Shown piece by piece: positions 3,704 to 34,881 of a DNA stretch of 35,718 nucleotides (its first letter is position 1; each line of letters opens with the position of its first letter). The position numbers and the translations under genes are program-made. The DNA lies in the NCBI GenBank assembly GCA_947471985.1, contig CANIZL010000071.1, forward strand, positions 1 through 35,718. Direction: 5' to 3'. A model generated the notes under the pieces. That model worked only from the letters and a program-made list of their open reading frames with translations. It did not search any database and was not told the DNA's origin. Source of the DNA: Verrucomicrobiota bacterium (GTDB taxonomy: Bacteria > Verrucomicrobiota > Verrucomicrobiia > Limisphaerales > UBA9464).

Positions 3704-5160
3704 CTATTGGAGCTTGAATGTCGCGATGCTGTCCAGATAACGCTCGCAGTACAGTATGACGAAGTAGTTGGGTTGATACTTCTGAATCAGGCTTTCGTTA
3801 ATAATGAAGTTTTGCTTGATATAAATATCATTGAAATTTGCGAATGAAGAAGCCATGAAGGGCTTGATGTAGTCGAAGAAGGAGTCGTGGACCATCAGGA
3901 TCGACGGCTTGGATGGGCGTTTGGCAACGTCGTCCGGTTGGGATGAGGCCAAGCAAGAGGGTTGGTCGTTGTCCTGGCCCAGGTCGTCAATACACTCGAG
4001 TCGGGCCAGGACATTGTCCCCGGCGCTGCGCCGTGCGGGTAGGACCAGATCTTGGTAGGGTACTGGAGTAAGTTCCGGATGCTTCGGTGCGAGTCGCTTC
4101 ATCAATTCCAGATAGTAGAGATAGGCCCCATAATAATTCCAATGGGTACCAGTCTTGTAGCAAACCTTGGATTTGTCCGGCACCTCAAAAACTTGAGGAG
4201 CGAATATAGTGGAGATTCCCAGCTGCTGGAAGTAGTCATTATAGACCGAGCCGTAGGTCCGGCCACCGGCTCGGGGTGATCGCAGATGCGCCGGGAACTC
4301 ATTGGTCAGGATATTGGCCCGGATCGGCACGATCATCACGATCAATTCCACTCCCCGCTGTTTGAGCCAGTCGCGCAACTGTGATATTTTTTGGCCTTCG
4401 GTGCCGTTCGTGAGATTCGTCTTGAGGACAGCCGGATCCGTCGCCGCAATCTCTAGAAAACGATCCGACGCGTAGAAGATATATCCCGATTTGCCGACGA
4501 TGACGTTGGAGTAGTTCTTTCCGTTCCAAAGGTTCGCGGGTTTCACCATTTCGGCTGCCTTCAGGACTTGGATCGAGTGGACCAGAAACAGGGGATTTGC
4601 GTAGTCGCCAATCGTGTCGACGACCTGGATCTTGGCGAGACGCCCATCGGTGGCCTTGTCAGCCGGCTCGAAAAGGTCGAGGCGTAGTTCGACGATGTCT
4701 CCGGGCTTCATGCCGAATTTGAGCACCTTGCCGGCGCGCTTGGCGAAGCGGGCCGCGAGCAGGATTTTCTCCAAACTGCTCTTATTGGCGTGGGCCTTGT
4801 TGGCGGCCAACAAGGTTTGGACGTTGTAATCGGCGCCGTTGGTCCGGATCTGCAGCAAGTCGTATTGATCATACACCAAACAGTCCGGATATGTGTCTTC
4901 CGCTTTGAAATTCACCTCCGAAACCTGGCGGACACGGGCCAAAACAACTGCCGCGTTGGACGATACCAATCCAGGAAACTCCCGGACGTCAATGGCCGTA
5001 GGTCCGGGCTGGGCAAGCTGTGCCCGGGCGGGAACGGCGACAGTTGCTGTCGAGTCGCCCGGGGGGGGGTGCCGGTCGCCGCCGCGGCCAGCAGGCGGAG
5101 GACAAAGGTCAGAAGCAAGCCGGGGAACAGGCGCCGGAGAAGCGTGGGAGAGTGTCTCAT
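3704..5160 (-). CDS. AlgX/AlgJ-like SGNH protein, frameshifted near its 5' end
   Basis: Secreted SGNH acyltransferase/esterase-like protein, probably for exopolysaccharide. The ATG at 5160 begins a signal peptide (MRHSPTLLRRLFPGLLL...) preceded by AAAGGG. The mature part is in another frame, from near 5060 down to the stop at 3704; without correction it opens only at a TTG at 4969 (421 residues). The two frames join if the 9-C run (plus-strand G run 5061-5069) had ten bases, giving TPPPGDSTATVAVPA and about 485 residues. In 421-residue numbering there is a beta-rich N-terminal domain (about 10-135), a GKSGYIFYASDR entry (about 159-170), T275-H276-W277 with Gly at 274 where Asp is usual, and D362-S363 in MVHDSF. 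The run could be a phase-variable switch, a real mutation or a sequencing error. It converges on the tandem SGNH gene. Confidence 0.75.
5061..5069. repeat. G9 homopolymer at frameshift site
   Basis: Nine consecutive G on the plus strand, read as C9 in the antisense gene, just after its signal-peptide segment. The reading frames before and after differ by one base at this point. Homopolymers this long are prone both to slippage in the cell and to sequencing error. Confidence 0.9.
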
Positions 5161-5382
5161 TTTTGCCCTTTCGAGCCTATATTGCGCCAGCATCATTACC
5201 GCCAACCGCTCCGCGGCAAATGAATCGAGGTCCGCCGGTAGATTAAAGGGTCGAATCGATCCAGCGTTTGACGACTGTTTCGCCGGTTACGGGGGGGAGA
5301 TGGCATCGACGCTTCCCGGCGGATCGATCTTCGGCCGGGTTGCATCGCAGGGCTCCTGCAAGCGGAATACGGCAGGGACCGG

Positions 5383-6950: not shown

Positions 6951-9839
6951 ATGATCCAAGTTAGTGCCAGCGTGTCCGGGCGTCGTCCTGAGGCAGGATC
7001 CCGGCGGGTGACCGGGTGGCGTTCCATTTTATGGACCTGCTTCGCGGTGAGTGTCGTATCGACCGTCGCTCGGGCGGCGGCGGGTAAAGAGGCCCCGGCG
7101 GCCGGGGTGGTGCTGCTTGAAGGTGAGGGCCTGCGGGTCGGGCGCCACACGGGCAACGTGGCGCCGCAGGATCTGCGGGGCTTCGGGGAAGGCGCCTGGA
7201 GCGGCAATGCGCATCTTTGGTGGACCGGCGCCAAACCGGGGGAGGAACTGGAGGTGCTCGTGCCCGTGGCCGTGGCCGGAACGTACCGGCTGGGCGCGGG
7301 CATGACCCAGGCCATCGATTACGGAATTTTCAGCTTCTCCCTGGATGGACAACCGCTGGAGGGTTCCGTGGATTATTTCCATGACGGAGTCCTCCACACC
7401 GGAACGCGGCCGTTGGGCGGCGCCGTCCAGTTGACGGCCGGTGAACATCGCCTGGGCATCAAAGTTATTGGTGCCAACGCCAAGGCGATCCCGGGTTACA
7501 TGTTGGGGTTGGATTATCTGGTTCTGGTGCCGGGTGCGACGGCCGACTGGGCCGCAGTGGGACCACGCTTGAATCCGCCGGGTCGGCCCGCCGCCGCGGA
7601 ATTGAAGATGGGTAATGCGGCGGATGTTCCCCCGCGCACGTCGATCGAACAACAGGCGGCTTTCACCGTGCCGCCGGGATTTGTCATCGAGTTGGTGGCG
7701 AGCGAGGAAACCGGTTTGCCCAAGCCGGCCATGACTGTTTTCGACGACGCCGGACGGCTGTGGTCGGTGACGGCAACGGATTATCCGCGGGACAACGACC
7801 CGGGCATCTGGACGCGCCCGGGAAACGACCGCGTGGTGATCATTGATCAACCCTGTACGCCCGGGCCCCATGCGGTTCGCACGTTTGCCGACGGGATGGT
7901 GATGCCGTTGTCGGTACTGCCGTATGGGCGCGGTGCCTTCGTGGCCCAGGGACCGGAGATTCTGTTTCTGGAAGATCGCGATGGCGACGGACGGGCGGAC
8001 ACGCGGAGCGTGCGCCTGCGGGGCTTCGGGGTGCAGGATACCCACACGTTGCCGCATCAGCTCACGCGCATGCCTGGTGGACGCATCGTCTATTCCCAAG
8101 GCGTGCTCAACAATGGCCGGGTGACCGATGCCGGCGGGCGCACAATTGATTTCAACAAGACGCAGATTGCGACCTTCCGTCCGGACGGCACCGGACACGA
8201 AGTGATCGGTGCGGGATTGAACAACATCTGGGCCTGGGCCGTTTCCCGCGAGGGACGCGTGTTTATTCACGAGGCGAATGATTTCGGTTACAGCGTCGTG
8301 CCATTTGAGGAGGATTCGACGTATCCCAGTTTCATTCTCACCAAGCTGCACCCCGCGACCCCGATGCATCCGCCGACCGCGCCCGGTCTGGAGTTGGGAG
8401 CGACCGGATTTTCCGGACTGGCGATCGCCGACGATCGGGCGGGATCCTATCCGGCTCCGTGGCACGGACTCATATATGTTTCGAATCCCGTGCTGGGTCG
8501 CGTGCACGCCGTGGCGATGGAGCAGGCGGCGAATGGTGTGTACTCCTTCAAAAAAGCGGGAGACCTGGTGACCTGCGCCGATCCGATGTTTCGGCCGGTG
8601 GCGATCACCTTCGGTCCGGATGGTTGTCTCTACATTACGGATTGGTATAACCGGATCATCTCCCACAACGAGGTCGCGCGGGATCATCCGGGCCGGGACA
8701 AAACCCGTGGCCGCATCTGGCGCGTACGGCATCAGAGCCAGACGCAGCGCCGCGTGCCGGATCTGACGCGCGTGGCAACGACCGAACTGCCGGCGCATCT
8801 GACGGCCGACAACACCTGGGAGATGCGGGCCGCGTGGCATGAGATCGCGAATCGCGGTGCCCGGGAACTGGCGCCGGCGTTGAAGACCCTGATCCGGGAT
8901 GCGCAGCGAGGGGATGACGTTCGGATCCAGGCGCTCTGGGCCTTGGAGGATACGGGCAACTTTGATGCAGTGTTGTGGCGGGAATTGCTCGCGCACGCGA
9001 ATGCGAACGTGCGTCGCGAAGCCGTCCGGGCGATGTCCGCCCTGAAGGTGCCGGCGGCGGAGGCTTTCACGCTCGTGCAGTCCTTGGCCGGCGAGACGGC
9101 GTGGACGGTGCGTTATGAAGTGCTGCGGTTCTTCCGGCGGACCGGGGCCACGGCGGAGCAGTTGGCGTGGTTGAAACGCTGGAGCGACGGCCCGGCGGAG
9201 CAACAGAAGGTGGAAGGGTGGAATGGACCGTATCTGGCGTTGGGCGGATCGTATGAACGCGCGTTTCAGGATCATCTTTGGTCGCGAATCAACGACACCA
9301 CCGCCGCGGTTGCGGACAGTGATCCGCGGTGGGATCAAATTCTGGCCACGCAACCGGCGCGGTCATCCGAGGCGACGGCTCGGATCCAGGCGAAGATCGC
9401 GTCCGTGAAGGCAGCCTTGGTTGCGGCGGGTGATCGACCGGCCGAGGCGGGCCGGGTTCTGGTACAGACCACCTGTCTCGCGTGTCATCGCATCGGCACC
9501 AAGGGTGTGTCGTTGGCACCGCCGCTGGATGGATCGGCGAGCCGCGATGTGGATGCGCTGATCACGGCCATCGTGGATCCGGATGCGGCGATGGAAAACG
9601 TCTTCCGGCTTTACCGGGTGGAATTGAAGAACGGCATGAAGGTGGAGGGCTTCCGGAAGAGCGTGGATGCGCGGCAACTCACGCTGATGTTCATGGGCGG
9701 CGGGACGCGGAGCATTCCCGTCGCGGAAATTCAGAATGCCGGCTACGTGCAGGGCAAATCGGTCATGCTGCCGTTGGCGGCGGGTTTGAGTGACGGACAG
9801 GTGGCGGACGTGATTCGCTACTTGAAGTCGCTGAAATAG
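6951..9839 (+). CDS. PVC-type membrane-bound dehydrogenase with HEAT repeats and cytochrome c heme domain
   Basis: A large secreted redox protein typical of Planctomycetes and Verrucomicrobia, thought to oxidise sugars or alcohols; the exact substrate is unknown. Parts in order: signal/anchor about 25-42 (SILWTCFAVSVVSTVARA); a beta-sandwich carbohydrate-binding-like domain about 50-195; a propeller-type dehydrogenase domain about 235-590, starting at FTVPPGFVIELVASEE and ending at GRIWRVRHQ; helical HEAT-like repeats about 605-760; and a C-terminal heme domain with C842-LA-C845-H846 and a downstream RLYRVELKNG segment typical of the PVC heme-binding family. The length of 962 is usual for the family. 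The gene is divergent from the sulfatase, suggesting joint use on a sulfated glycan. It appears intact. Confidence 0.9.
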   Translation: MIQVSASVSGRRPEAGSRRVTGWRSILWTCFAVSVVSTVARAAAGKEAPAAGVVLLEGEGLRVGRHTGNVAPQDLRGFGEGAWSGNAHLWWTGAKPGEELEVLVPVAVAGTYRLGAGMTQAIDYGIFSFSLDGQPLEGSVDYFHDGVLHTGTRPLGGAVQLTAGEHRLGIKVIGANAKAIPGYMLGLDYLVLVPGATADWAAVGPRLNPPGRPAAAELKMGNAADVPPRTSIEQQAAFTVPPGFVIELVASEETGLPKPAMTVFDDAGRLWSVTATDYPRDNDPGIWTRPGNDRVVIIDQPCTPGPHAVRTFADGMVMPLSVLPYGRGAFVAQGPEILFLEDRDGDGRADTRSVRLRGFGVQDTHTLPHQLTRMPGGRIVYSQGVLNNGRVTDAGGRTIDFNKTQIATFRPDGTGHEVIGAGLNNIWAWAVSREGRVFIHEANDFGYSVVPFEEDSTYPSFILTKLHPATPMHPPTAPGLELGATGFSGLAIADDRAGSYPAPWHGLIYVSNPVLGRVHAVAMEQAANGVYSFKKAGDLVTCADPMFRPVAITFGPDGCLYITDWYNRIISHNEVARDHPGRDKTRGRIWRVRHQSQTQRRVPDLTRVATTELPAHLTADNTWEMRAAWHEIANRGARELAPALKTLIRDAQRGDDVRIQALWALEDTGNFDAVLWRELLAHANANVRREAVRAMSALKVPAAEAFTLVQSLAGETAWTVRYEVLRFFRRTGATAEQLAWLKRWSDGPAEQQKVEGWNGPYLALGGSYERAFQDHLWSRINDTTAAVADSDPRWDQILATQPARSSEATARIQAKIASVKAALVAAGDRPAEAGRVLVQTTCLACHRIGTKGVSLAPPLDGSASRDVDALITAIVDPDAAMENVFRLYRVELKNGMKVEGFRKSVDARQLTLMFMGGGTRSIPVAEIQNAGYVQGKSVMLPLAAGLSDGQVADVIRYLKSLK

Positions 9840-24160: not shown

Positions 24161-24658
24161 ATGGTCAATCAAGAGTTGGTCCGTTGGCACGTCGCCCATA
24201 CCCGGCCGCGATGCGAGAAGAAGGTCGCCGAGAACTGCGAACGCGACGGGCTGGAAGTCTGTCTGCCGCTCTATCGCAGCGTGAAGAAGTATCGGGGCAA
24301 GGCGGTGGCCTTCAGCAAGCCGCTCTTTCCGGGGTACCTCTTTTTTCGCGCCGGCGGCTCCCAGTCCGCCCGGGTACGTCAGAATAATCAGGTCGCCCGG
24401 GTGCTGGTCCCGCCCGATGAGGCGGAATTTGCCGGACAATTGGCCGATATTCTCCGGGCGCTCGAAACGGATCGCGAAATCCGGCTGGCCCCGCAGATCC
24501 GGGACGGCATGCGCGTGAAGATCGTCCGCGGTCCGCTGCGGGGCATGGATGGTTTGGTGGAGCGGCGCTCCGGTTTGCTGGAGGTTTATCTCCGACTCGA
24601 CTTCATCAGTGAATGCGCCGCGGTGCGGGTCACGGCGGACGAACTCGAGGCTGTGTAG
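24161..24658 (+). CDS. NusG-family (UpxY/RfaH-like) transcription antitermination protein
   Basis: A specialised NusG paralogue of 165 residues, expected to bind RNA polymerase and help it through terminators in long exopolysaccharide operons. The NGN domain (about 1-95) opens with RWHVAHTRPRCEKKVAENCE and has KPLFPGYLFFRA. A KOW-type C-terminal domain (about 112-162) carries IRDGMRVKIVRGPLRGMDGL. It is shorter than housekeeping NusG and sits next to an exosortase, which is a common arrangement. No operon for it to act on lies downstream: a terminator follows 115 bp later. Its C-terminal half recurs as a fragment at 25115-25374. Confidence 0.9.
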   Translation: MVNQELVRWHVAHTRPRCEKKVAENCERDGLEVCLPLYRSVKKYRGKAVAFSKPLFPGYLFFRAGGSQSARVRQNNQVARVLVPPDEAEFAGQLADILRALETDREIRLAPQIRDGMRVKIVRGPLRGMDGLVERRSGLLEVYLRLDFISECAAVRVTADELEAV

Positions 24659-24772
24659 CGCGGCCCGCAGCATGGCGCCCTGCTCCGGCAGAATCCGCCC
24701 GCAGAAGGGAAAGAATCGGCGGTCGGCATCGGCAATCGCACCCCCACGAGGTTTCTGCTCACCAGCAACGAC

Positions 24773-24807: not shown

Positions 24808-25023
24808 CCCGATTCGACGGCCCTCGGCACTGTCGCCGGCGGCTGCGCCGGGATCCCTAACAACCTGGTGCGAGTGGGTCTGGCCTGCATTGCCACGGAA
24901 GCCGGCCTCAATTGTTGAATTCACTTTTCGGCGGGATTGGCGGCCTGAGTGGGCGTCGAAGGGCGCCCCTTGGGTCAAGCCGATGAATCCGCTGCCCCGA
25001 ATCCCGTTATCAATCCCCCTATC

Positions 25024-25114
25024 GATGCCAGGCTCCCTGTGCCGCCGTTGATGAAGACCGGAAAAATCGTCCGTAACGAATGGCCTAATTTTCCGTAGGA
25101 GGGGGTGAAGTCGG
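25024..25114 (+). repeat. 91-bp dispersed repeat, copy A
   Basis: Starts GATGCCAGGCTCCCTGTGCC and ends TTTTCCGTAGGAGGGGGTGAAGTCGG (read in two parts, the last 26 bases identical to copy B). About 85 percent of its 91 bases match 26510-26600. Its right edge is joined directly to the truncated NusG-like fragment. It may be the end of a small mobile element or a REP-type sequence; no transposase is adjacent. Confidence 0.8.
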
Positions 25115-25374
25115 GGGTGCTGGTGCCACCCGATGAGGCGGAGTTTGCGGAGCAGTTGGCGGATAGTCTCCGGGCGCAGGAAACCGATCGGGAAATCAGG
25201 CCGGTACCGGAGATCCAGGATGGGATGCGGGTCAAGATCACCCGCGGCCCACTGCGCGGTATGGACGGACTGGTGGTCCGGCGGTCCGGGTTGTTGGAGG
25301 TTTATCGGCGACTCGACTTCATCAGCCAATGCGCCGCGGTGCGCGTCACGGCGGATGAATTGGAGGCGGTGTAG
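25115..25374 (+). pseudogene. Truncated NusG-like copy (C-terminal half only)
   Basis: Encodes the last 85 residues of a second NusG-like protein, from VLVPPDEAEFA to the stop, with 11 amino-acid differences from 24400-24658. The KOW segment IQDGMRVKITRGPLRGMDGL is kept, but the whole NGN domain that would contact RNA polymerase is missing. A GTG at 25105, inside the upstream repeat, would open an 89-residue frame, so a short KOW-only protein is possible, though decay is more likely. Similarity ends at the stop codon on the right and exactly at the 91-bp repeat on the left. Confidence 0.8.
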
Positions 25375-25544
25375 CCGACGGTCCGGGGGAGGAAGCGTTC
25401 AACTGGCCGCGTTGGGCCACCCCGGTGGACTGCGGTGAGTGGTCGTTGCTGTGATCATCAGGCCAGGCTGCACGCCATGGCCGCAGAAAGCCGGACTTTA
25501 CGGAGCCACTCAGAAAAGCGCCCCGCGCACCCATCCCTATGAAG

Positions 25545-25977: not shown

Positions 25978-26509
25978 AGAATTTCGATTAGAGCGTTTTT
26001 CGAGTTCATCTCTGCGGCAACCGTTTCAGTTCCGCATTGAACTCAACACCCCAATAGCTGGGGGCGTGCCAAGTTTTTGAGGCCCCCCGGTCGATGCTCG
26101 ATTTCCCCGGTTCCGGTGCGGTACCGAGGGCGGAATTAATCCGTGTTTGCTGGGAAATTTGTGGTTTTTGATCGCCAAAAATTCTTCAAAGGAGCGGACG
26201 ATCATCGGGAGTGTGATGCCTCCGGAGGGTGCGCCCGGGCGCGCCCTGTTCCGCTGCCGGAACAACGGAATGAATTTGATTCGGAACGGTTCCGATCGCG
26301 GAACACCGGAACACCGGACCAGGGACGATTCGGTCGGGGATGGGTCCGCGGGTGCATTTGAAATGCGTCACCCGCGCGTTGGTGCACCCGGCGAGAGCGG
26401 GTGTCGATTTGCCGACGGCGAGATGACCGAACGAGTTGTGGCGCGATTGGATTGCCGCCGTGGGCCATCGCTGCAGCACTCAATGAATGGTTCTCGCCGC
26501 GTTAGGCCC
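25978..26509. other. Intergenic stretch with short repeats, no gene seen
   Basis: No frame here has a recognisable product or coding character. It should hold the promoter of the minus-strand small secreted gene, but no clear -35/-10 pair is visible. It contains a perfect 13-base palindrome CGGAACGGTTCCG (26282-26294), soon followed by a tandem GGAACACCG pair (26300-26317). Confidence 0.6.
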
Positions 26510-26600
26510 GGTGCCAGGCTCGCTGTGCCACCTTTGATGCAGATCGAAAAAATTATGCGTAACGACGGGCCGAATTTTCCGTAGGAGGGGGTGAAGTCGG
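26510..26600 (+). repeat. 91-bp dispersed repeat, copy B
   Basis: Second copy of the repeat at 25024-25114, same orientation, about 14 differences, last 26 bases identical. It begins GGTGCCAGGCTCGCTGTGCC, whose GGTG...CACC edges form a short imperfect inverted pair. It lies 80 bp before the comM start. Confidence 0.8.
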
Positions 26601-26680
26601 AGTCGGGTGGCTCGCGAGCGGGCTCCCATGGGGGGATCCACCCGCGGTGTTTCACCTGTCCTCCGGGTTCGGCAACATCC

Positions 26681-28207
26681 GTGCTCGCTCAAATATACAG
26701 TGCCGCCGTTCAGGGTATCGACGCCTACCTCGTCGAGGTCGAAGTCGATGCCGGTTATGGCAATACCCTCCTGAGTTTGGTCGGCCTGCCCGACGCCGCC
26801 GTGAAGGAATCCCGGGATCGGGTTTGTACGGCCATGTCGAACAGTGGGTACAAGTTCCCGATGGGTCGGACGACCATTAATCTCGCCCCGGCGGACGTTC
26901 GGAAGGAGGGGCCGGGGTTTGATCTGCCTATCGCCCTGGGCATCCTCGCCGCCTCGGAACAAATCGAATCCCATCGACTCGCCGAGGTCATGGCGGTGGG
27001 TGAATTGGCGCTTACGGGTGCGGTGCGACCGGTGAAGGGTGTGCTCTCGATTGCTCTGCGGGCCCGGGCCGAGGGCAAGCGGTTATTACTGGTGCCGCAG
27101 GACAATGCGGCGGAGGCGGCGGTGGTGGAGGGGCTGGATATCATTCCGATCCAAAACCTGCGCGAAGCGGCCTTCTTCCTCGAAGGCCAGATCGACATTG
27201 AACCCTTGCGCATCGACACCGCGGCCTTGTTTGCCGAGCCACTGGATGACGAACTGGATTTGGCGGATGTGAAGGGGCAGGAGTCGGTAAAGCGCGCCTT
27301 GGAGATCGCCGCGAGCGGTGGACATAATCTGTTGTTGCTGGGTGTTCCGGGCACCGGCAAGAGCATGCTGGCCAAACGCCTGGCGACGATCCTGCCGCCG
27401 CTGACGCTCGACGAAGCGTTGGAAACCACCAAGATCCACAGCATCGTCGGCAAGCTCCAGCCGGGGCAGGCCTTGGTGACCCGGCGACCCTTTCGTTCAC
27501 CGCATCATACGGCTTCGGATGCGGGATTACTGGGTGGAAACGCCAACCCCACGCCCGGGGAGATTTCCCTCGCCCATCACGGCGTGTTGTTTCTCGACGA
27601 ACTCCCGGAGTTCAAGCGCACGGTTTTGGAAACCATGCGCCAACCCCTGGAGGATGGAAAGGTGACCATCAGCCGGGCCGCCGGTACGGTAACGTATCCC
27701 GCGCAATTCATGCTGGTGGCGGCGATGAATCCGACCCCGGATGGAAAAATGCCGCATGAAAGTCGCTGTTCACCGAGAGAAATGCAGGCGTACCTCGGGC
27801 GCATTTCCGGTCCCTTGCTGGATCGCATTGATCTCCACGTGGAAGTGCCGCCGGTAAAGTTCACCGAAATGCGGGAGGGGCGGCCGGGAGAAGCCTCGGT
27901 TGTGGTTCGCGAGCGGGTGATGGCCGCGCGGGCGATCCAACGGCAACGATTCGCCCACAAACCCCGCATCACCTGCAATGCCCGGATGGGCAGCACGGAG
28001 ATGCGGCAATTTTGCGCCGTGGACGCAACCACTGCGGAACTTTTGAAACATGCGATGACGGATTTGAACCTCTCCGCCCGGGCTTATGACCGTGTGCTGC
28101 GCGTGGCCCGGACCATCGCGGATCTGGCCGCGAGCGAACGAATTCTCGCCGAGCACATGGGTGAGGCGATACAATACCGTAGTTTAGACCGGAGGTTGTG
28201 GGGCTGA
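26681..28207 (+). CDS. comM: YifB/ComM family Mg-chelatase-like AAA+ ATPase
   Basis: ComM is a hexameric helicase that promotes branch migration during natural transformation. The GTG at 26681 is chosen since the protein then opens VLAQIYSAAVQGIDAYLVEV, the usual N-terminus; length 508. The Lon-protease-like ChlI domain spans about 1-190. The ATPase core has Walker A GVPGTGKS at 221-228 and Walker B VLFLDE at 302-307, plus RRPFRSPHHTASDAGLLGG. The C-terminal Mg-chelatase domain (about 400-505) includes LNLSARAYDRVLRVARTIADL. The usual CPCG cysteine cluster near 352 is replaced by NPTPDGKMPHESRCSP. Residues from about 353 to the end recur at 33636-34102. It is followed at 22 bp by the TOPRIM gene, whose frame continues from the comM TGA without another stop. 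Confidence 0.95.
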   Translation: MLAQIYSAAVQGIDAYLVEVEVDAGYGNTLLSLVGLPDAAVKESRDRVCTAMSNSGYKFPMGRTTINLAPADVRKEGPGFDLPIALGILAASEQIESHRLAEVMAVGELALTGAVRPVKGVLSIALRARAEGKRLLLVPQDNAAEAAVVEGLDIIPIQNLREAAFFLEGQIDIEPLRIDTAALFAEPLDDELDLADVKGQESVKRALEIAASGGHNLLLLGVPGTGKSMLAKRLATILPPLTLDEALETTKIHSIVGKLQPGQALVTRRPFRSPHHTASDAGLLGGNANPTPGEISLAHHGVLFLDELPEFKRTVLETMRQPLEDGKVTISRAAGTVTYPAQFMLVAAMNPTPDGKMPHESRCSPREMQAYLGRISGPLLDRIDLHVEVPPVKFTEMREGRPGEASVVVRERVMAARAIQRQRFAHKPRITCNARMGSTEMRQFCAVDATTAELLKHAMTDLNLSARAYDRVLRVARTIADLAASERILAEHMGEAIQYRSLDRRLWG

Positions 28208-28228
28208 CTCCAGGGGTCGAATCAGAGT

Positions 28229-29029
28229 TTGTTCGTCTCAGTTGGTAACCAGGCGCCGCCGCCGGCCAAGCAAACCGCTGTGTCGCCGAGTGGATCACAT
28301 CCGAGCCAGATGCCCGTTGTTGTCAACGAGCCTCTGGACTTCGAACTCAAGGGACTCGACCAGAGTCACCCCTACCTTTTGGACCGAGGCTTCAGTCCGG
28401 AAACCATCGCCTATTTCGGCCTTGGTGTCGCGGCGCGAGGATCCCTCAAGGGACGTGTCGCGATTCCGCTCCACGACACCGATGGTCGCCTTATCGGCTA
28501 CGCCGGGAGGCAGATTGGTGACTCGACGGTATCCGACAACAACCCCCGCTACCTGTTTCCCTCAAATCGGGAGCGAGAAGGGGTCGTTCGGGAATTCAGG
28601 AAATCCGATTTGGCTTACAACGCCTCCATGTTGAAAAGTCCCGCGCAGGAGGTTATTGTGGTTGAGGGGTTTATGAACCTCTGGTGGTTGCATCAGAACG
28701 GGCTAACCCAAACTGTTGGGCTGATTGGTAGTGAGTGCTCAGATCGTCAGGGGGAATTGCTGGTCTCACTTCTGGCCCCTGCTGGCCGAGTGTGGATCCT
28801 GCCTGGTGGTGACTCGATTGGAGAGTCATGGGCAGACAGTATCCTAAAGCGGCTCGTTCGGGAAAGGCTCTGTCGGCTGATTCGGCTGCCAGAGGGAAGA
28901 CAACATGGCTTGACGGACGACGGATACGATATCCTGACCCGGGATCTCTGTCGGCTGATTCGGCTGCCAGAGGGAAGACAACCGTCGGAATGCAAAATTG
29001 ATGAGTTGGAAGCATGGTTGAAGCAGTGA
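28229..29029 (+). CDS. DnaG-like TOPRIM protein lacking the CHC2 zinc finger
   Basis: Resembles the catalytic part of CHC2/TOPRIM primase-like proteins. The first 35 residues are Pro/Ser-rich. VNEPLDFELKGLDQSHPYLLDRG, FGLGVAARGSLKGRVAIPLHD and GRLIGYAGR (about 35-100) match the primase-core N-terminal subdomain, and EVIVVEGFMNLWWLHQNGL begins the TOPRIM domain with its conserved Glu. The DxD metal motif has become PGGD (WILPGGDSIGE), so catalytic ability is doubtful. The N-terminal zinc finger of the family is absent. The only start is TTG at 28229, and the frame runs back to the comM TGA. A 26-residue insertion holds a duplicated LCRLIRLPEGRQ. It may be a working comM partner or a decayed remnant; the open frame of 266 residues favours some retention. 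Confidence 0.7.
   Translation: MFVSVGNQAPPPAKQTAVSPSGSHPSQMPVVVNEPLDFELKGLDQSHPYLLDRGFSPETIAYFGLGVAARGSLKGRVAIPLHDTDGRLIGYAGRQIGDSTVSDNNPRYLFPSNREREGVVREFRKSDLAYNASMLKSPAQEVIVVEGFMNLWWLHQNGLTQTVGLIGSECSDRQGELLVSLLAPAGRVWILPGGDSIGESWADSILKRLVRERLCRLIRLPEGRQHGLTDDGYDILTRDLCRLIRLPEGRQPSECKIDELEAWLKQ
28868..28982 (+). repeat. Internal 37-bp repeat, 78-bp period
   Basis: The same 37 bases occur at 28868-28904 and 28946-28982 in the TOPRIM gene. The spacing of 78 bp is exactly 26 codons, so the frame is kept. The downstream copy of the gene has only one unit. Confidence 0.9.
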
Positions 29030-29033
29030 ATAG

Positions 29034-29064
29034 GGAGCGACTCGAAGGGGTCGCTCCTCTTGCC
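29034..29064 (+). terminator. Hairpin terminator after the TOPRIM gene
   Basis: GGAGCGAC (29034-29041) pairs with GTCGCTCC (29050-29057), followed by a weak U-rich tail (TCTTGCC). The same hairpin follows the second TOPRIM copy, where the T run is better. Confidence 0.65.
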
Positions 29065-29151
29065 TTGAAGTAATAGGTGCGTATCGTCGTACAAACTTCT
29101 CATTTTTGGCGGGCCGGTTCAGATTCCTACGGAAGGTGTCTGTAAATTAGC

Positions 29152-29463
29152 GACTTCTACCACGCCATGGAACACGCCGGGGAGGTTCTCAGCGCGTCGA
29201 TCGGCAAGCGCCATCCGGAGTTCAAGGCCCGCCTGCGTCGGTGGGCTAAGCGACTGCTGTAAGCCGGAGTTGAATCCCTTATCCAACAGACTCGCAAGGA
29301 GTGCACCGGCCGTGCCTGTGCCCCCGCGGTCGAATCGGCTTTGGGCTACTTCGTCCCCAACCTCCCTCGCGTGCAGTACGGAAGCCGTCGCCTCGAGGAA
29401 TTCTGGAGACACCGCCTCAACCACCACGTCGCTCGCAATGACTCCCTCGCCCTCGCTGCCTAG
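29152..29463 (+). pseudogene. Transposase-like remnant with internal stop
   Basis: One frame of 104 codons reads DFYHAMEHAGEVLSASIGKR... RLRRWAKRLL, then a TAA, then AGVESLIQQTRKEC... ALGYFVPNLPRVQYGSRRLEE to a TAG at 29461. DFYHA-x-EH and ALGYF-x-N-x3-R-x-xY are patterns of ISKra4/ISL3-like DDE transposases (family assignment from memory of the motifs, uncertain). No start codon, no N-terminal half, and no terminal repeats are visible. It marks the left part of the 4.6 kb between the duplicated segments. Confidence 0.5.
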
Positions 29464-29491
29464 CCGAAAAACTCTGTCCCACAACCGTGGC

Positions 29492-29520
29492 TTGACAACG
29501 TTGTGTTAATGGTTTTTAAT
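29492..29520 (+). promoter_or_regulatory. Sigma-70-type promoter
   Basis: TTGACA (29492-29497), 17-bp spacer, TTTAAT (29515-29520). It lies just upstream of the secreted-protein gene, in AT-rich sequence, and is the best promoter match in the window. Transcription would start near 29527. Confidence 0.55.
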
Positions 29521-29615
29521 GAGCAAGATGAACAATCGAGATGAAAAATCATGTTACTGGTTTTTGCACCCAATCGTATCCTAGGATTCATGCTGATCTT
29601 TTACTTAAAAAGTTC

Positions 29616-31259
29616 ATGCGCTGGATACAGCTTATACTCCTTTCTGTTGCCGGAGACGGTATTATTCAAGCGCAAGATTTGGGTCCGATCGTATGGGGAG
29701 TAAAATATAACGTCACGGACTACGTAGCAAGGCCAGTAACCGGTGGATCTGACAATACACAAGTATGGACTATTGAAAATGGTTTCCCCGATCTGCCTCC
29801 CGGCTCAATCACAAGATTTCAAAAACGAACATACAATCAAAGTCAAACTTCGGGTGTGTCGTCCAGCGAGGTGCGAACACGCAAATTTTATACGGATGGC
29901 ACGAGCCGGGAAACATTTGTAAGGACACCAACCGCTCCAGGCGTTGACTACGACATTCAGCCGTCCTCAGAAATTGAGGCGTATGAACTTGGGTACTGGA
30001 ACTATCAGAGACCCGTATACGGTGGAACTGAAACCAGAACCCATACGACGTCGATCGAATATCGATCAATCAACGACTGTCCATCTAGCCGGTTCGATCA
30101 AGTGTTGATCACGGTTACGATTACCGCTACCGATTTAGATGGAAACCCAATACCGTACAATCAAATCTCTATTGGTGGACTTACCTGCAATGCCAATGGC
30201 CAGATTCGCATTGTGGCAAATCTTGGCACAACCATTCCCCTTACCCCAACGGTAGCCGTCCCGGCTTACAAATTTTATCAATATGTAAATTCCGAGCGGA
30301 TCGCTGTCGCTTTTCAAGGAATTGCCAACGCCACTTATGACTTGCCGTGTGGCACCAAGCTCATTCCAATGCTAGCAAAATCCAAGACAGAATACTGGAC
30401 TTTGGGGCCTCCAGACCTGAATTGCACATGGGGTGTTGACTCGGGGGTAACTGGCGGTTGGAGGTCTAGTACCACCCCACCTGTCGAAATTCTCTACAGT
30501 CAGTCAACTGGGTGGGTCGGGGCCGTTCACACCTATAAAACCGCTGGACAAAAGCGAACAACAGCGACGGGGACAATCTACGGACAGCCCATTGCTGTCT
30601 ACAGAGACATCAATATCATCAAACCAACTTCCGGATTTATCTCAACGGATTTTTCCGGAATAACCGTTGGAAATCCAGGCAATTATTACCTAACTAAACG
30701 GCTCGGCAGGCTTCCCGAGATGGTTTTCGTACCCCAAGGGTCGTATCTCCGCGAAGGTTGGCAGGCAAAGGGGTTGGTCCCGGCGCCATTCCAGCAAGGT
30801 TCCGTGTTTTCCTGCCAAGTAATTAAGTCAGCCAGTGCGGATTATCTAGGTGGCACAGGAGGAGTACCGGTATATAAGGTCATGCCCGGCGTACCTGCGC
30901 TTGACGGAACTGTTTTCAAGCCGTCAAACATTTATTCTTTGGTGAATATTGCGACAGTTGGTTCAGATTCCCCGAACATCAACCTTTTCACAAGCCTTTA
31001 TACCTATGAAAAGTTCGATATAAATATTGAAGTAACATTCTTTTACGCACCGGAATCTGGAGCGGATGCAATGACATTTGCCGTTCCGTTCGCAAAAAGC
31101 ACATTTTCAATCAAAGTTGCCGCAACCCAACCAGCACTTGGTTCGGACAACTGGACGCCGGTTTCTGGGCTGTCTGCAAATATCCCGGGCACTCCTATCG
31201 ATACCTCTGTCTATCCAACGTGGGATTCAGTGGCAAATCCGGCGGTTCTCAATCCATAG
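29616..31259 (+). CDS. Secreted protein of unknown function
   Basis: I do not recognise a family. From the ATG at 29616 the 547 residues start with a plausible signal peptide (MRWIQLILLSVAGDGIIQA); a longer frame from the ATG at 29541 is possible. The rest is beta-rich, high in Thr, Ser, Tyr, Gly and Asn, with few long helices and several cysteines (for example SSRFDQ preceded by NDCP, GGLTC, DLPCGTK, DLNCTW). A segment LITVTITATDLDGNPIPYNQ resembles an Ig-like or carboxypeptidase-regulatory beta domain. Base composition is clearly more AT-rich and codon use less biased than in the flanking genes, suggesting transfer. A good promoter lies upstream, and the membrane-anchored protein gene follows after 35 bp, so the two form a likely unit. 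Confidence 0.65.
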   Translation: MRWIQLILLSVAGDGIIQAQDLGPIVWGVKYNVTDYVARPVTGGSDNTQVWTIENGFPDLPPGSITRFQKRTYNQSQTSGVSSSEVRTRKFYTDGTSRETFVRTPTAPGVDYDIQPSSEIEAYELGYWNYQRPVYGGTETRTHTTSIEYRSINDCPSSRFDQVLITVTITATDLDGNPIPYNQISIGGLTCNANGQIRIVANLGTTIPLTPTVAVPAYKFYQYVNSERIAVAFQGIANATYDLPCGTKLIPMLAKSKTEYWTLGPPDLNCTWGVDSGVTGGWRSSTTPPVEILYSQSTGWVGAVHTYKTAGQKRTTATGTIYGQPIAVYRDINIIKPTSGFISTDFSGITVGNPGNYYLTKRLGRLPEMVFVPQGSYLREGWQAKGLVPAPFQQGSVFSCQVIKSASADYLGGTGGVPVYKVMPGVPALDGTVFKPSNIYSLVNIATVGSDSPNINLFTSLYTYEKFDINIEVTFFYAPESGADAMTFAVPFAKSTFSIKVAATQPALGSDNWTPVSGLSANIPGTPIDTSVYPTWDSVANPAVLNP

Positions 31260-31294
31260 TTCCCCCCGTAATCGCGGCTCTCGCCCGTCCGCAT

Positions 31295-32341
31295 ATGTCG
31301 CAGATCCGAAACAAACTGATTTTTTCCTCCTGGCTCTGTGCATTCGGGGGGAGTCTGTGTGTCCAGGCTGCCTCCAAGACGGAAGTGTCTGGCAACGATC
31401 AGATTTACGACGAACCACAGATGCTGGATCAGGAACGTTTGGAGGAAGACATACGCCGGGATAGCCGCGGCGAGCCACGTATGGTCGTGAATACGATCCT
31501 TGATGTTGCCCAAAGGGTGAGACCTCAGGTGGGGTTTGAATCCAGTCCGGGAGTATTCATCCGAGTGGCGATGAACGGAACATCGTTTCCGATCGGACAT
31601 CCTCCTCGTTTGTTCGTGTTTCTGGAAAATCCGGGTGCACAACCACTGATGGTAATGGGCAGCGGATCCATGATCTGGGACTTCCTTGAGGTACAGCTCC
31701 ATGACTCCAAGGGAAAGGAGGTCAAACCGACGGTTTTGTATGAGTTTCGGCAGGCACAGAGTGAATTTCCACTCGCACTGCGTGCCGGACTACGCCCGCA
31801 TCCGGATAATTCGAATTATTTGTTTGCCGGAAAGATAGAGGACGCCTTTGGATCCCTCGCGCCAGACACGTACACGTTGGAGGTCAAAGTCCACCCGTCA
31901 CGTCTGTATTTTTTAAAGCAGCCGGTTTCTCCACCGGCAACCCAGAGATTTGCCTTTGAAATTCGCAGGGACAAGCACCCATATTGGACAAATGCGTTAC
32001 CTGACGACACGGCTGGATATCGGAAGCTCGCTGAAGATTGGGTGAATGAACGTCACGACGAGCTGATTCTGGACCGTGCCAAAGCCGAAATTGGTTTGCC
32101 CACAGCCGCCAGCCAACGAGCTCAATTGCTGGAACAATTGACTGCGTCACCAGAGCCAGCGGCAACATCGAGAATGTCTTTGCCGGTAATTGAGCATAAA
32201 GTGGCAAATACGGAGGTCACGCCTCAGGCGGATGCGTTGGAGTCTGGGCGGCCGCGATCTTTTCGGAGGCCGGCAAGTCTCGTGATGATATTGTCCGGCA
32301 TGGCCGGCGGGATCTACTGGATCCTCCGGAGAAGAACGTGA
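31295..32341 (+). CDS. Exported protein with C-terminal membrane anchor, unknown function
   Basis: Unrecognised family. The ATG at 31295 gives 348 residues with a signal peptide (IRNKLIFSSWLCAFGGSLCVQAA). A beta-sandwich-like region (about 80-240) contains FIRVAMNGTSFPIGHPPRLF, VFLENPGAQPLMVMG and LAPDTYTLEVKVHPSRLYF, broadly like BsuPI/Ig-type domains. A helical segment follows (YRKLAEDWVNERHDELILDR). The C-terminus is a membrane helix with a basic end, SLVMILSGMAGGIYWILRRRT. This helix-plus-Arg tail looks like part of an exosortase signal, but no PEP or VPDSG-type motif precedes it. It is probably held on the membrane with its body outside, and cotranscribed with the secreted protein gene 35 bp upstream. 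Confidence 0.65.
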   Translation: MSQIRNKLIFSSWLCAFGGSLCVQAASKTEVSGNDQIYDEPQMLDQERLEEDIRRDSRGEPRMVVNTILDVAQRVRPQVGFESSPGVFIRVAMNGTSFPIGHPPRLFVFLENPGAQPLMVMGSGSMIWDFLEVQLHDSKGKEVKPTVLYEFRQAQSEFPLALRAGLRPHPDNSNYLFAGKIEDAFGSLAPDTYTLEVKVHPSRLYFLKQPVSPPATQRFAFEIRRDKHPYWTNALPDDTAGYRKLAEDWVNERHDELILDRAKAEIGLPTAASQRAQLLEQLTASPEPAATSRMSLPVIEHKVANTEVTPQADALESGRPRSFRRPASLVMILSGMAGGIYWILRRRT

Positions 32342-33101
32342 GCAGTGACGAAGCGTGGGGCGGGAACCCCGGACTTTCGGGCCTATCCTTTGGTTTCATC
32401 GTCCGCGGTGGCAATATTGCTTCGCGAATCAAAACCACCCATCGGTTCCCCCGTAGGTATTGCAGGCATGATTCCACGACGGCTTCGGTGATACCATTCG
32501 TGAATCAACATCCCTCTAAGGCCCAGCGCTGATGCCACCCGACACCGCACGAGCGCGAGTTGTGTTGGCAGAGGTCCTGATCGTTGGTGGACACAGTACT
32601 GATAGATGGGATGAGAGCTGGTGGACAGCCAACGCGAACTTTTGTAGGTCCATGAGGCCATGAAAAACAAAAGGAAAGTTCGATCGCTCAAGCCGGCGGA
32701 GCGCCCGTCGACGGGTTCTACGGAAGTGGCGGAGCCGTGTTACAGCGCTCCTGGGCCTAGTATCGTTCTGGGAGCCGGCGCCGCAAAAGCTGTGAAATCC
32801 CGACTGTGGACTTTCAACCTCCCTTGACGCACACCCCACTGCCATGCCGAGTGGCTTTTACTGAAACTCTGCCACCTAAGGATGGCTGGAACTGATTGAT
32901 GGCCTGGATCGCCGGATGCGTCTGCACACCGGTCAGCATCCTTCCGCTTGGGTGTGGCCGGTCCGGTCTGGAAGGGCGGCTCGACGGCCCGCCCCCTCCG
33001 CAGATGACGATTTTGCAGGTGGTTAATCCGGTCGATTTTCGGTGGGGTGTCGAGAGAGTTGTTGGAATACTCTGTTTGGGCGTTCGAGAGTTTGTGGATG
33101 C
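32342..33101. other. 760-bp stretch without a supported gene
   Basis: Several short frames are open on both strands, but none shows a family motif, signal peptide or consistent codon use. On the minus strand one frame is open for about 100 codons (32383-32691) without a recognisable domain. It may hold decayed sequence between the membrane-anchored protein and the HTH gene. Confidence 0.5.
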
Positions 33102-33623
33102 TCAGGTTGGAAGCTTGCCGAGAAAGGTATCGACACTGAGCCGCCCTTGACCAATTGGCCGATGCTTGCCGCATTCCCACTCACGGAGGGTTCTCGGGTG
33201 GATTCCGAGTTGGTTGGCGAGTGCTTCTTGGGTCAGTTGGAGTTCCAAACGTGGTAGTTTCAGCGCCCGTCCAGTGGCCTCCGCCGGTGTTAAATAGGCA
33301 ACGTGGTTGGGTTCGTTGGTTTTGACGGCTACGAGCTTTGGATCGGGGATCGTTTGGAACGGATCGTACCCCAGGTAGGCGGAAATCGAATTCCTTTGAG
33401 CCCATGCCGGGTAGATCCGGTCACCTTCCCATTTGCTCAGGGTGACCATGCTAACCCCCAGAATTCGAGCGGCCTTGGACTGGTAGATGCCGAGTTGGAG
33501 GCGACGACGGCGAAGGTGTCCGCCAATGGTCGTGGGTTCGGTTGGGACGAGGATGCCGCGGCTCCGCCGTGGCAGGAAGTCCCGGCGAGAGGTGTGCAAA
33601 ACTCTCTCACAAAGGGGCAACAT
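33102..33623 (-). CDS. XRE-type regulator with two HTH domains
   Basis: A DNA-binding regulator of 173 residues. HTH 1 (about 32-86) reads TTIGGHLRRRRLQLGIYQSK, then AARILGVSMVTLSKWEGDRI, with a following YLGYDPF segment. HTH 2 (about 119-170) reads ALKLPRLELQLTQEALANQL, then GIHPRTLREWECGKHRP. Both have the Q-x3-A...GV/GI...T-x2-W/E-W-E layout of XRE proteins. The ATG at 33623 was chosen because codons further upstream in this frame belong to the antisense of the comM fragment. That start is only a few bases from the edge of the duplicated segment, so the original N-terminus may have been changed by the rearrangement. Targets are unknown; the promoter at 29492 is a candidate. Confidence 0.78.
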   Translation of the reverse strand: MLPLCERVLHTSRRDFLPRRSRGILVPTEPTTIGGHLRRRRLQLGIYQSKAARILGVSMVTLSKWEGDRIYPAWAQRNSISAYLGYDPFQTIPDPKLVAVKTNEPNHVAYLTPAEATGRALKLPRLELQLTQEALANQLGIHPRTLREWECGKHRPIGQGRLSVDTFLGKLPT

Positions 33624-33635
33624 CGCGCACGCCCG

Positions 33636-34102
33636 ACGGAAAAATGCCGCATGAAAGTCGCTGTTCACCGAGAGAGATGCAGGCGTACCTTGGGCGAATT
33701 TCCGGTCCCTTACTGGATCGCATTGATCTCCACGTGGAAGTGCCGCCGGTGAAATTCACCGAGATGCGGGACGGGCGGCCGGGAGAAGCCTCCGCTGTGG
33801 TTCGCGAACGGGTCATGGCCGCGCGGGCGATACAACGGCAACGATTCGCACACAAACCCCGCATCACCTGCAATGCGCGGATGGGCAGCACGGAGATGCG
33901 GCAATTTTGCGCCGTGGACGCCACGACTGCCGAGCTCTTGAAACATGCGATGACGGATTTGAACCTCTCCGCCCGGGCCTACGATCGAGTTCTGCGCGTC
34001 GCCCGAACCATCGCGGATCTGGCCGCGAGCGAACGAATCCTCGCCGAGCACATGGGTGAGGCGATACAATACCGTAGTTTAGACCGGAGGTTGTGGGGCT
34101 GA
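33636..34102 (+). pseudogene. comM 3' fragment (C-terminal domain only)
   Basis: Encodes residues about 353-508 of ComM, from DGKMPHESRCSP to DRRLWG and the TGA, without the ChlI domain or Walker motifs. Against the intact gene I count 28 base differences in 467, of which 26 are synonymous and two change residues (E to D in MREG, V to A in SVVV). There is no stop or frameshift. A frame happens to be open upstream to 33542, but that part is antisense to the HTH gene and not ComM-like. Confidence 0.92.
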
Positions 34103-34123
34103 CTCCAGGGGTCGAATCAGAGT

Positions 34124-34846
34124 TTGTTCGTCTCGGTTGGTAACCAGGCGCCACCGCCGGCCAAGCAAACCGCGGGGCCGCCGGGTGGATCAAATCAGGG
34201 CCAGATGCCCGTTGTTGTCAACGAGCCCCTGGACTTCGAACTCAAGGGACTCGACCAGAGTCACCCCTACCTTTTGGACCGAGGCTTCAGCCCGGAAACC
34301 ATCGCCTACTTCGGCCTTGGTGTCGCGGCGTGAGGATCCCTCAAGGGACGTCTCGCGATTCCGCTCCACGACAAAGAGGGTCGCCTTATCGGCTACGCAG
34401 GGCGGCTCATCGATGACTCCCAGGTATCCGCCGACAATCCCCGCTATTCGTTCCCCGCAAATCGGGAGCGGGATGGGGTCGTTCGGGAATTCAGGAAATC
34501 CGAGTTGGTGTACAACGCCTCCAGATTGAAAAATCCAACGCATTAGGTTATTGTGGTGGAAGGGTTTATGAACGTCTGGTGGTTGCATCAGAGCGGACAA
34601 ACACAGACCGTTGGACTGATCGGAAGTGAGTGCTCAGTTCGCCAAGGGGAACTATTGGCTTCATATCTGGCGCCGGCCGGGAGGCTATGGATCCTTCCTG
34701 GCGGTGACAAAATTGGTGAAGATTGGGCCGAAAGCATTCTGAAGCAGGTGGTGAATCAGCGGTTTTGCCGGCTGATTCGGTTGCGGGAGGGAGGGCAGCC
34801 GTCGGAATGCAGTGTTTCGGAGTTGGTAGCGTTGTTAAAGCCGTGA
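34124..34846 (+). pseudogene. TOPRIM gene copy 2, two nonsense codons
   Basis: Aligns codon for codon with 28229-29029, except for the 26-codon insertion of that copy: both have 240 common positions and no frameshift. A CGA to TGA change gives a stop at 34331-34333 (after YFGLGVAA), and GAG to TAG gives a stop at 34544-34546 (before VIVVEGFMNVWW). The last 97 codons are open again from an internal GTG near 34553. Many differences from copy 1 alter residues, unlike in the comM part. PGGD replaces the DxD motif here too. Confidence 0.9.
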
Positions 34847-34850
34847 ACCA

Positions 34851-34881
34851 GGAGCGACTCGAAAGGGTCGCTCTCCTTTTT
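34851..34881 (+). terminator. Rho-independent terminator after TOPRIM copy 2
   Basis: GGAGCGAC (34851-34858) pairs with GTCGCTC (34867-34873), followed by TCC and five T (34877-34881). It is the counterpart of the hairpin at 29034. Confidence 0.75.

Follow-up and report, generated by a model that had tools for sequence, protein, structure and literature searches.

Why should a bacterial contig carry an intact comM gene and, 5.9 kb away on the same strand, a second copy of that gene's 3' end? This question is raised by contig CANIZL010000071.1 (C71) of a Verrucomicrobiota bacterium, the entire 35,718 bp of which form the window analysed here. The genome (G000; 6.38 Mb, 180 contigs, 96% complete) is probably metagenome-assembled. 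The intact gene (26591..28207, plus strand, its 5' limit being the putative start codon of the listed open reading frame (ORF)) encodes a YifB/ComM Mg-chelatase-like AAA+ ATPase, matching Pfam Mg_chelatase, ChlI and Mg_chelatase_C and NCBIfam TIGR00368 (628 bits), and a TOPRIM/DnaG-like gene lies directly 3' of it. The comM 3' end and this neighbour are here termed copy A, and their repeat downstream copy B. The answer favoured, at a probability of about 0.82, is that copy B and the helix-turn-helix (HTH) gene beside it would represent the attR scar of a comM-targeting element moved by a large serine recombinase, comM having later been made whole.

The duplication described in the initial annotation is real. 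Between copy A (27734-28897) and copy B (33629-34792) there is an ungapped alignment of 1164 bp with 88.1% identity; the left edge of the repeat is sharp, at 27734, and similarity extends for a further 108 bp (28949-29056 against 34766-34873, 79.6%) past a small tandem duplication in the TOPRIM gene of copy A. That gene (28229..29029, plus strand; DNAG_N 1.9e-07, TIGR01391 7.6e-17, the latter under cut-off) is represented in copy B by a pseudogene (34124..34846, plus strand) with in-frame stops at 34331 and 34544. The comM portion of copy B, running from codon 382 to the stop (33629..34102, plus strand), retains an open frame. Over the last 467 bases of comM (27741-28207) the copies show 29 differences, 27 synonymous and two replacing (E/D at 27877 and V/A at 27900); the mostly synonymous pattern with two replacements and no gap thus stands as first described, with corrected counts of 29 and 27 in place of 28 and 26. 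The dN/dS comparison that had been proposed for the two copies, made like all such comparisons here by a counting method, gives dS 0.267, dN 0.006 and a ratio of 0.022 over 156 codons, and random substitution (5000 draws) yields a mean of 7.4 and a maximum of 17 synonymous changes per 28. We infer that both 3' ends belonged to complete working genes until recently and parted recently, in keeping with the earlier suggestion that the fragment diverged inside a complete comM and arrived by recombination. If the fragment is an attR scar, the synonymous excess means only that it was recently part of a working comM. By simple arithmetic from the two replacing changes (Poisson upper limit ~6), constraint on copy B can have been absent only during roughly the final seventh of its half of the divergence.

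The alignment is also mosaic, with zero differences across 28144-28240 and a dS between the two TOPRIM sequences of 0.09 over the first 90 codons and 0.76 beyond. Similarity around 28144-28500 looks, from this distribution, partly like the product of later gene conversion. Homogenisation by conversion had been offered as a source of the likeness between the two ends; a tract of probable conversion does exist, but it is short only.

A third comM 3' end (copy C) lies in the same genome on contig C121 at 4822-5299 and starts at the same base as copy B; identity is 90.7% between C121:4225-5299 and window 33032-34106, so that B and C have in common a flank, left of the comM 3' end, that is absent from A. 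This flank is a minus-strand gene with two HTH_3 stretches (33102..33623 in the window; HTH_3 4.6e-12) whose likely start codon lies five bases from an AC dinucleotide, and the 24 bp preceding that AC are identical in B and C. The equivalent AC in the intact gene (27734..27735, plus strand) falls in codon 382, marks the left edge of the repeat and would be the crossover point of the element family; in copy B the putative element right end plus AC forms the attR-type scar tctcacaaaggggcaacatcgcgc|AC (33606..33630, plus strand). On one side the block that B and C have in common reaches to about the HTH stop, on the other to about the comM stop. Copy C itself extends to the comM stop, beyond which comes an AI-2E transporter gene in place of TOPRIM, and its comM portion contains one in-frame TGA. 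Copy C may be the scar of another insertion of the same element type. Changes private to each copy number, synonymous and replacing respectively, 14 and 2 in A, 11 and 0 in B, and 21 and 2 in C. No tRNA or Rfam RNA was found at the insertion site within the window.

The same junction recurs across the order. A first search with the HTH protein, in 146 genomes of the order, found homologs adjoining comM 3' ends that start at ComM residue 371-382 in G047, G102, G088 and G043, and family-wide searches, including that for junctions, were then made in 320 genomes of the order. At the right junction a variable ...AAAAGGCAACATCGCGC is followed by AC and then by the comM 3' end; among 18 aligned right junctions from 17 genomes of several families (G000 contributing two), AC is present in 18, and in G108 only ~48 bp of comM remain beyond it. 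An alignment-based HTH search (E 1e-12) gave 46 matches in 28 of the 320 genomes, 17 of them, in 16 genomes, at the codon-382 junction; G172 has the right end and no HTH match at this threshold. A search with the ComM C-terminus found a match in 275 of the 320, and the scar and junction counts, drawn from the inspected part of the genomes with extra matches, are lower bounds. Together with G181, G122, G286 and G290, at least 21 of the 320 genomes carry an element end at codon 382.

Several further loci, not all of them counted, resemble these junctions. G204 (L332) has an HTH-like stretch directly after comM and G121 (L329) a decayed comM 3' remnant, 59% identical, 0.9 kb after comM; both are possible further scars, and neither was counted as one, nor was G122, where a left end accompanies an apparently intact comM. 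Near position 8400 of G268:C87 (L287), at the contig end, a comM 3' end is joined at AC to the interior of a serine recombinase gene. At L281:2876, L277:715 and L257:9779 what comes after the HTH end and its AC is not comM; a conserved AGGTCAGTTGCATGAACTTGTGATTGCATG (with small variations) stands there, probably as the left end of another type of cassette. An order-wide scan with the right-end motif at two mismatches proved too loose, reversed-pattern controls also matching many genomes, and was excluded from the counts.

The left junction identifies a candidate enzyme. In G047, G088 and G102, comM residues 23-29 to 382 lie on a separate contig from the 3' end, and the sequence passes from comM (...CCGAC) through AGGTTTCGTTGCCTTTTTGTGA into a serine recombinase gene, C-terminus first, with an open frame of 505-529 aa. 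The G047 enzyme (504 aa) has the Pfam Resolvase (PF00239) and Recombinase (PF07508) domains, and its matches to NCBIfam cassette chromosome recombinase (Ccr) models are all far below cut-off (CcrB 140.3 bits against 900, CcrC 106.4 against 900, CcrA 56.1 against 700). A search at E 1e-30 found recombinases of this kind in 57 of the 320 genomes and returned 30 loci. The 10 that are 69% or more identical to the G047 enzyme are all found at a codon-382 left junction. Nine of these have a recognisable comM 5' part, G253 keeping a remnant of ~36 bp, and AC is found in nine of the ten, G181 having AG. The comM gene is therefore an insertion hotspot in this order too, as had been anticipated by analogy with AbaR islands, though by an unlike mechanism. 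The remaining 20 loci, one of them (L389) without flank, showed none at codon 382. In four the site is a tRNA-Ser gene, and one each lies at comM codons 148 (L379, G080:C20) and 311 (L383, G208:C79), so that in this order comM has been struck at three codons by related recombinases. The tRNA-Ser(CGA) loci (L373-L376) encode recombinases ~55-61% identical to the comM type. A further 13 (L377, L378, L380-L382, L384-L388, L390-L392) end at sites resembling CCCTCACCC..TAAC, which seem to be a repeated target.

The attP site of a serine integrase is expected to have inverted arms around a 2-bp site, and the element ends have this form: arms inverted around AC match at 15 of 23 positions in G250, a value equalled or bettered in 27 of 100000 shuffles, and right arms compared with the left arm are identical at 12-17 of 23. 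The ends thus fit a serine integrase attP as expected, and the recombinase is the putative agent of insertion at comM. A phage nature was considered and set aside after viral contigs, scanned with the recombinase by a pattern-based search, gave nothing; matches to plasmid sequences were all below 60% identity, with 45 of 3165 records covering 80%.

One genome, G250, holds the whole element, 10,224 bp long, on a single contig. The order is comM residues 26-382, the recombinase gene (with one TGA inside), HsdM- and HsdR-like genes, an internal HTH end, a kinase gene, a hemerythrin gene, the right-end HTH gene (with stops inside) and the comM 3' end. With the two flanks joined, the product is a ComM of 508 aa, 76% identical to the window protein in a gapless alignment. 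The gene 3' of the comM end in G250 directly follows comM in G248 (79.9% over 1270 bp), so the 3' end of G250 stands in its native place. At the internal end, AC is followed by a different conserved sequence, which also stands after AC in G253 and G043, and this arrangement suggests tandem cassettes. The HsdM- and HsdR-like genes (G250:C82:40235-44243; L393, L281) are type I restriction-modification genes carried inside the element. No transfer gene was found among the four larger ORFs and the HTH ORF scanned in the G250 element; the G047 stretch has a TrwB/TraG-like coupling protein.

From these parts the history of the window may be reconstructed as follows. The large serine recombinase would insert the element at the 2-base AC of codon 382 and split comM, as would once have happened in G000. 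Recombination with a diverged comM-TOPRIM allele would then restore comM and remove the left part of the element, leaving behind its right end plus the old 3' half of the gene. Eight genomes (G000, G172, G292, G283, G215, G249, G253 and G043) carry both a scar and a comM that reads across codon 382, comM having therefore been restored in them. In the first five of these, comM and scar share contig and strand, with the repeat 1.1-11.9 kb downstream of comM; in G249, G253 and G043 they lie on different contigs. The G215 gene is cut by a contig end and that of G043 contains a run of N. Five other genomes (G047, G088, G102, G302 and G250) have a split gene, a recombinase end and no other C-terminus match, and G284, G288, G297 and G108 were placed in neither group. 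These bacteria thus seem to repair comM after element insertions. A further comM remnant (residues 489-537) downstream of the scar in G172 and the two scars of G000 suggest repeated events.

Restoration of comM may have followed either of two routes that explain the anatomy about equally well: recombination, by way of the comM 5' part, with a donor allele that brings its own flank, or the arrival of cassettes bearing a comM 3' end. In support of the former, both A and B in G000 are followed by a TOPRIM sequence, as if the donor and native flanks were homologous.

A number of observations weigh against the reconstruction. The HTH family is not specific to comM, 29 of its 46 profile matches lying elsewhere. 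The activity of the recombinase is a prediction from homology, and neither a recombinase of this family nor a left end was found in G000, so the insertion there is read from right ends only. A downstream gene common to both copies occurs only in G000, with no similarity in three of three others (G172, G283 and G215, the last compared over only 1.1 kb; G292, whose two flanks overlap, was left out), so the donor-allele route is less convincing as a general mechanism. Trees first pointed to a native orphan end in G253, G283 and G249, and tests of which 3' end is native conflict. The tree-based view of the orphan as the displaced native 3' end was withdrawn for G253, where the intact 3' end follows G250, as does the 5' part; a finer comparison shows the G253 orphan to be foreign and the recombinant tract to belong to G248. 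The G292 orphan is probably also a foreign copy, and the evidence for G283 and G249 leans weakly towards a native orphan. Finally, no other genome of G000's genus was among those searched, so the empty-site state cannot be seen. The conserved comM neighbourhood was tried as a guide to the native flank of G000 and failed, few window or C121 genes having matches near comM in the loci compared.

The alternative that survives best is a self-sparing cassette. Islands that target tRNA and tmRNA genes spare their target by supplying its end. By analogy, some elements of the family would carry a comM 3' end as their own left end, so that insertion at AC would rebuild comM and displace the resident 3' end, making A, B and C an array of two cassettes. 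Several features of the anatomy suit this: the A-to-B unit runs from AC to AC, starting with a comM 3' end and TOPRIM and finishing with the HTH gene; in five genomes comM precedes the scar, with contig and strand shared; the minimal unit, in G292, is 1.07 kb; and at the three places where HTH|AC ends border another conserved sequence, that sequence is probably the left end of a next cassette. The idea is nevertheless opposed by the left ends themselves, since at 10 of 10 recombinase left ends it is the recombinase gene, not a comM 3' end, that stands at the junction. In addition, G253 and probably G292 have an intact gene with a native-like 3' end, the opposite of what is predicted, and no family recombinase was found in G000 or between comM and scar in G172, G292, G283 and G215. 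The cassette model is accordingly rated possible and clearly the less probable account. The island with a replacement comM 3' end put forward in the initial annotation is one of the two routes above; its anatomy fits five genomes, and the tests of origin conflict between relatives. A further step, in which serine-recombinase islands of Verrucomicrobiota evolved comM 3' left ends and so repair the gene that their parent destroys, with break-and-mend cycles that leave one orphan each, can be proposed only tentatively; were it true, the number of scars would count the past rounds of conflict between mobile element and DNA uptake.

A different possibility is that the orphan end functions as a gene. 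It would encode the ComM C-terminal domain by itself, perhaps with ComM as its target, and would be selected together with the divergent HTH gene. The eleven synonymous and zero replacing changes private to B would suit such a gene, as would the limits of the block common to B and C. Across the order, most orphan ends do appear to be under constraint like that of a working comM. Compared with the 3' end of their own comM in six relatives, they show dS of 0.5-1.4 and dN/dS of 0.07-0.14. For 17 ends, orphan or split, set against whichever functional gene is closest in dS, the ratio is 0.02-0.40; functional comM pairs give 0.045-0.575, with medians of 0.17-0.21, B and C falling below this range. 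Only copy C of the 17 has a stop codon, and 14 deviate at 0-2 of ~70 conserved columns. Of the other three, G253 deviates at 3, B at 4 (all common to A) and C at 5; functional genes average 0.57 deviations and have 4 at most. Yet low dN/dS is equally expected after a recent parting from a whole gene, and the pattern needs no function of the fragment. The in-frame TGA of copy C, the ~48 bp left in G108 and the 59% identical remnant in G121 speak against a working orphan, the latter two demonstrating that orphan ends can decay. So does the G253 orphan, whose ratio of 0.318 at dS 0.49 exceeds those of ten functional pairs of like dS (0.045-0.231). A working orphan is therefore improbable, it is plausible that copy B is non-functional, and most orphan ends would be alleles of functional type that stem either from other lineages or from recent times.

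A simple tandem duplication at this locus, whose copies then diverged without the action of any mobile element, would account for two copies of comM 3' and TOPRIM on the same strand at this spacing, but is very improbable: a dN/dS of 0.02 in a fragment without the ATPase domain, the flank that B and C share and A lacks, and a left edge that falls, across 17 genomes from several families, at the same dinucleotide and behind an element end of the same type lead us to reject it together with the neutral decay it implies. Equally hard to credit is a wrong joining of mixed strains in a metagenome bin, which a 180-contig genome and a strain-like 6% difference in comM might suggest, as the same junction type occurs in 17 assemblies, five with comM on the same contig.

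Elements that combine some of these features are known. The staphylococcal cassette chromosome (SCC), whose target is rlmH/orfX, likewise pairs a large serine recombinase with a single coding-gene target, and CcrB is the best NCBIfam model for the G047 enzyme (8e-41). Unlike in SCC, the enzyme falls short of the Ccr threshold (140 bits against 900), the target is comM codon 382, the gene is split mid-way and not trimmed at its end, and no second recombinase was noted beside that of the comM element in the ORFs listed. Serine recombinase elements that split a coding gene include the fdxN element, with XisF, and the Listeria comK prophage; XisF is the third-best NCBIfam match of the G047 enzyme (6e-30), but at 104.6 bits against a cut-off of 375, and no evidence of regulated excision was found here. 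The AbaR/Tn7-like comM islands make a 5-bp target duplication; the junction repeat of the comM element is 2 bp. Recurrent mobile-element interruption of comM is described for Acinetobacter, Aggregatibacter, Mannheimia, Francisella and Pseudomonas syringae (PMC4774983, PMC11472951). Those insertions are Tn7-like elements, insertion sequences and others in Proteobacteria, whereas the present family has a serine recombinase, a 2-bp site, a Verrucomicrobiota host and scars beside intact comM. Tandem serine-recombinase islands at one gene are known from Dehalococcoides, where a recombinase lies beside attL and many islands, some without their own integration module, are arrayed at ssrA (PMC3146451). 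They repeat the last 20 bp of ssrA, whereas the scar here keeps a coding 3' end of ~470 bp and the target is a DNA-uptake gene.

The breaking of comM by mobile elements has been cited in support of the view that they disarm natural transformation, a process that might otherwise remove them (PMC4774983, PMC11472951), and salvage of comM by recombination was considered in A. baumannii and found no more frequent than chance (PMC11472951). In the lineage studied here, recovery of comM leaves a readable scar, so insertion and repair become countable in genomes. It is this alternation of breakage and repair that merits further study, and the duplicated end is more informative than first supposed. 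Added to this is a family of serine recombinases whose target is defined and whose relatives strike comM at codons 148 and 311; it is a possible tool for site-specific integration. No description of a comM codon-382 recombinase family was found in the open-access literature on comM and serine recombinases, comM and cassette chromosome recombinases, or Verrucomicrobi and large serine recombinases, as judged mainly by titles and abstract openings.

The remaining features of the window lie around these copies. Between comM and the scar are two plus-strand ORFs, of 572 aa (29541..31259) and 373 aa (31220..32341), for neither of which a family match was found and either of which could be cargo or donor flank; the G+C content of the former is 0.478, against 0.634 upstream of comM. 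The tandem duplication inside the TOPRIM gene of copy A is a perfect one of 37 bp (28868-28904 and 28946-28982, 78 bp apart). Positions 1-149 of the window form a dispersed repeat, identical to the start of C121, with 10 matches in the genome and found at the start of several contigs; an adjacency of C71 and C121, considered from their matching starts, was dropped for this reason. Just 5' of comM are two pairs of direct repeats, 24399-24659 with 25115-25375 (82%) and 25023-25114 with 26509-26600 (86%).

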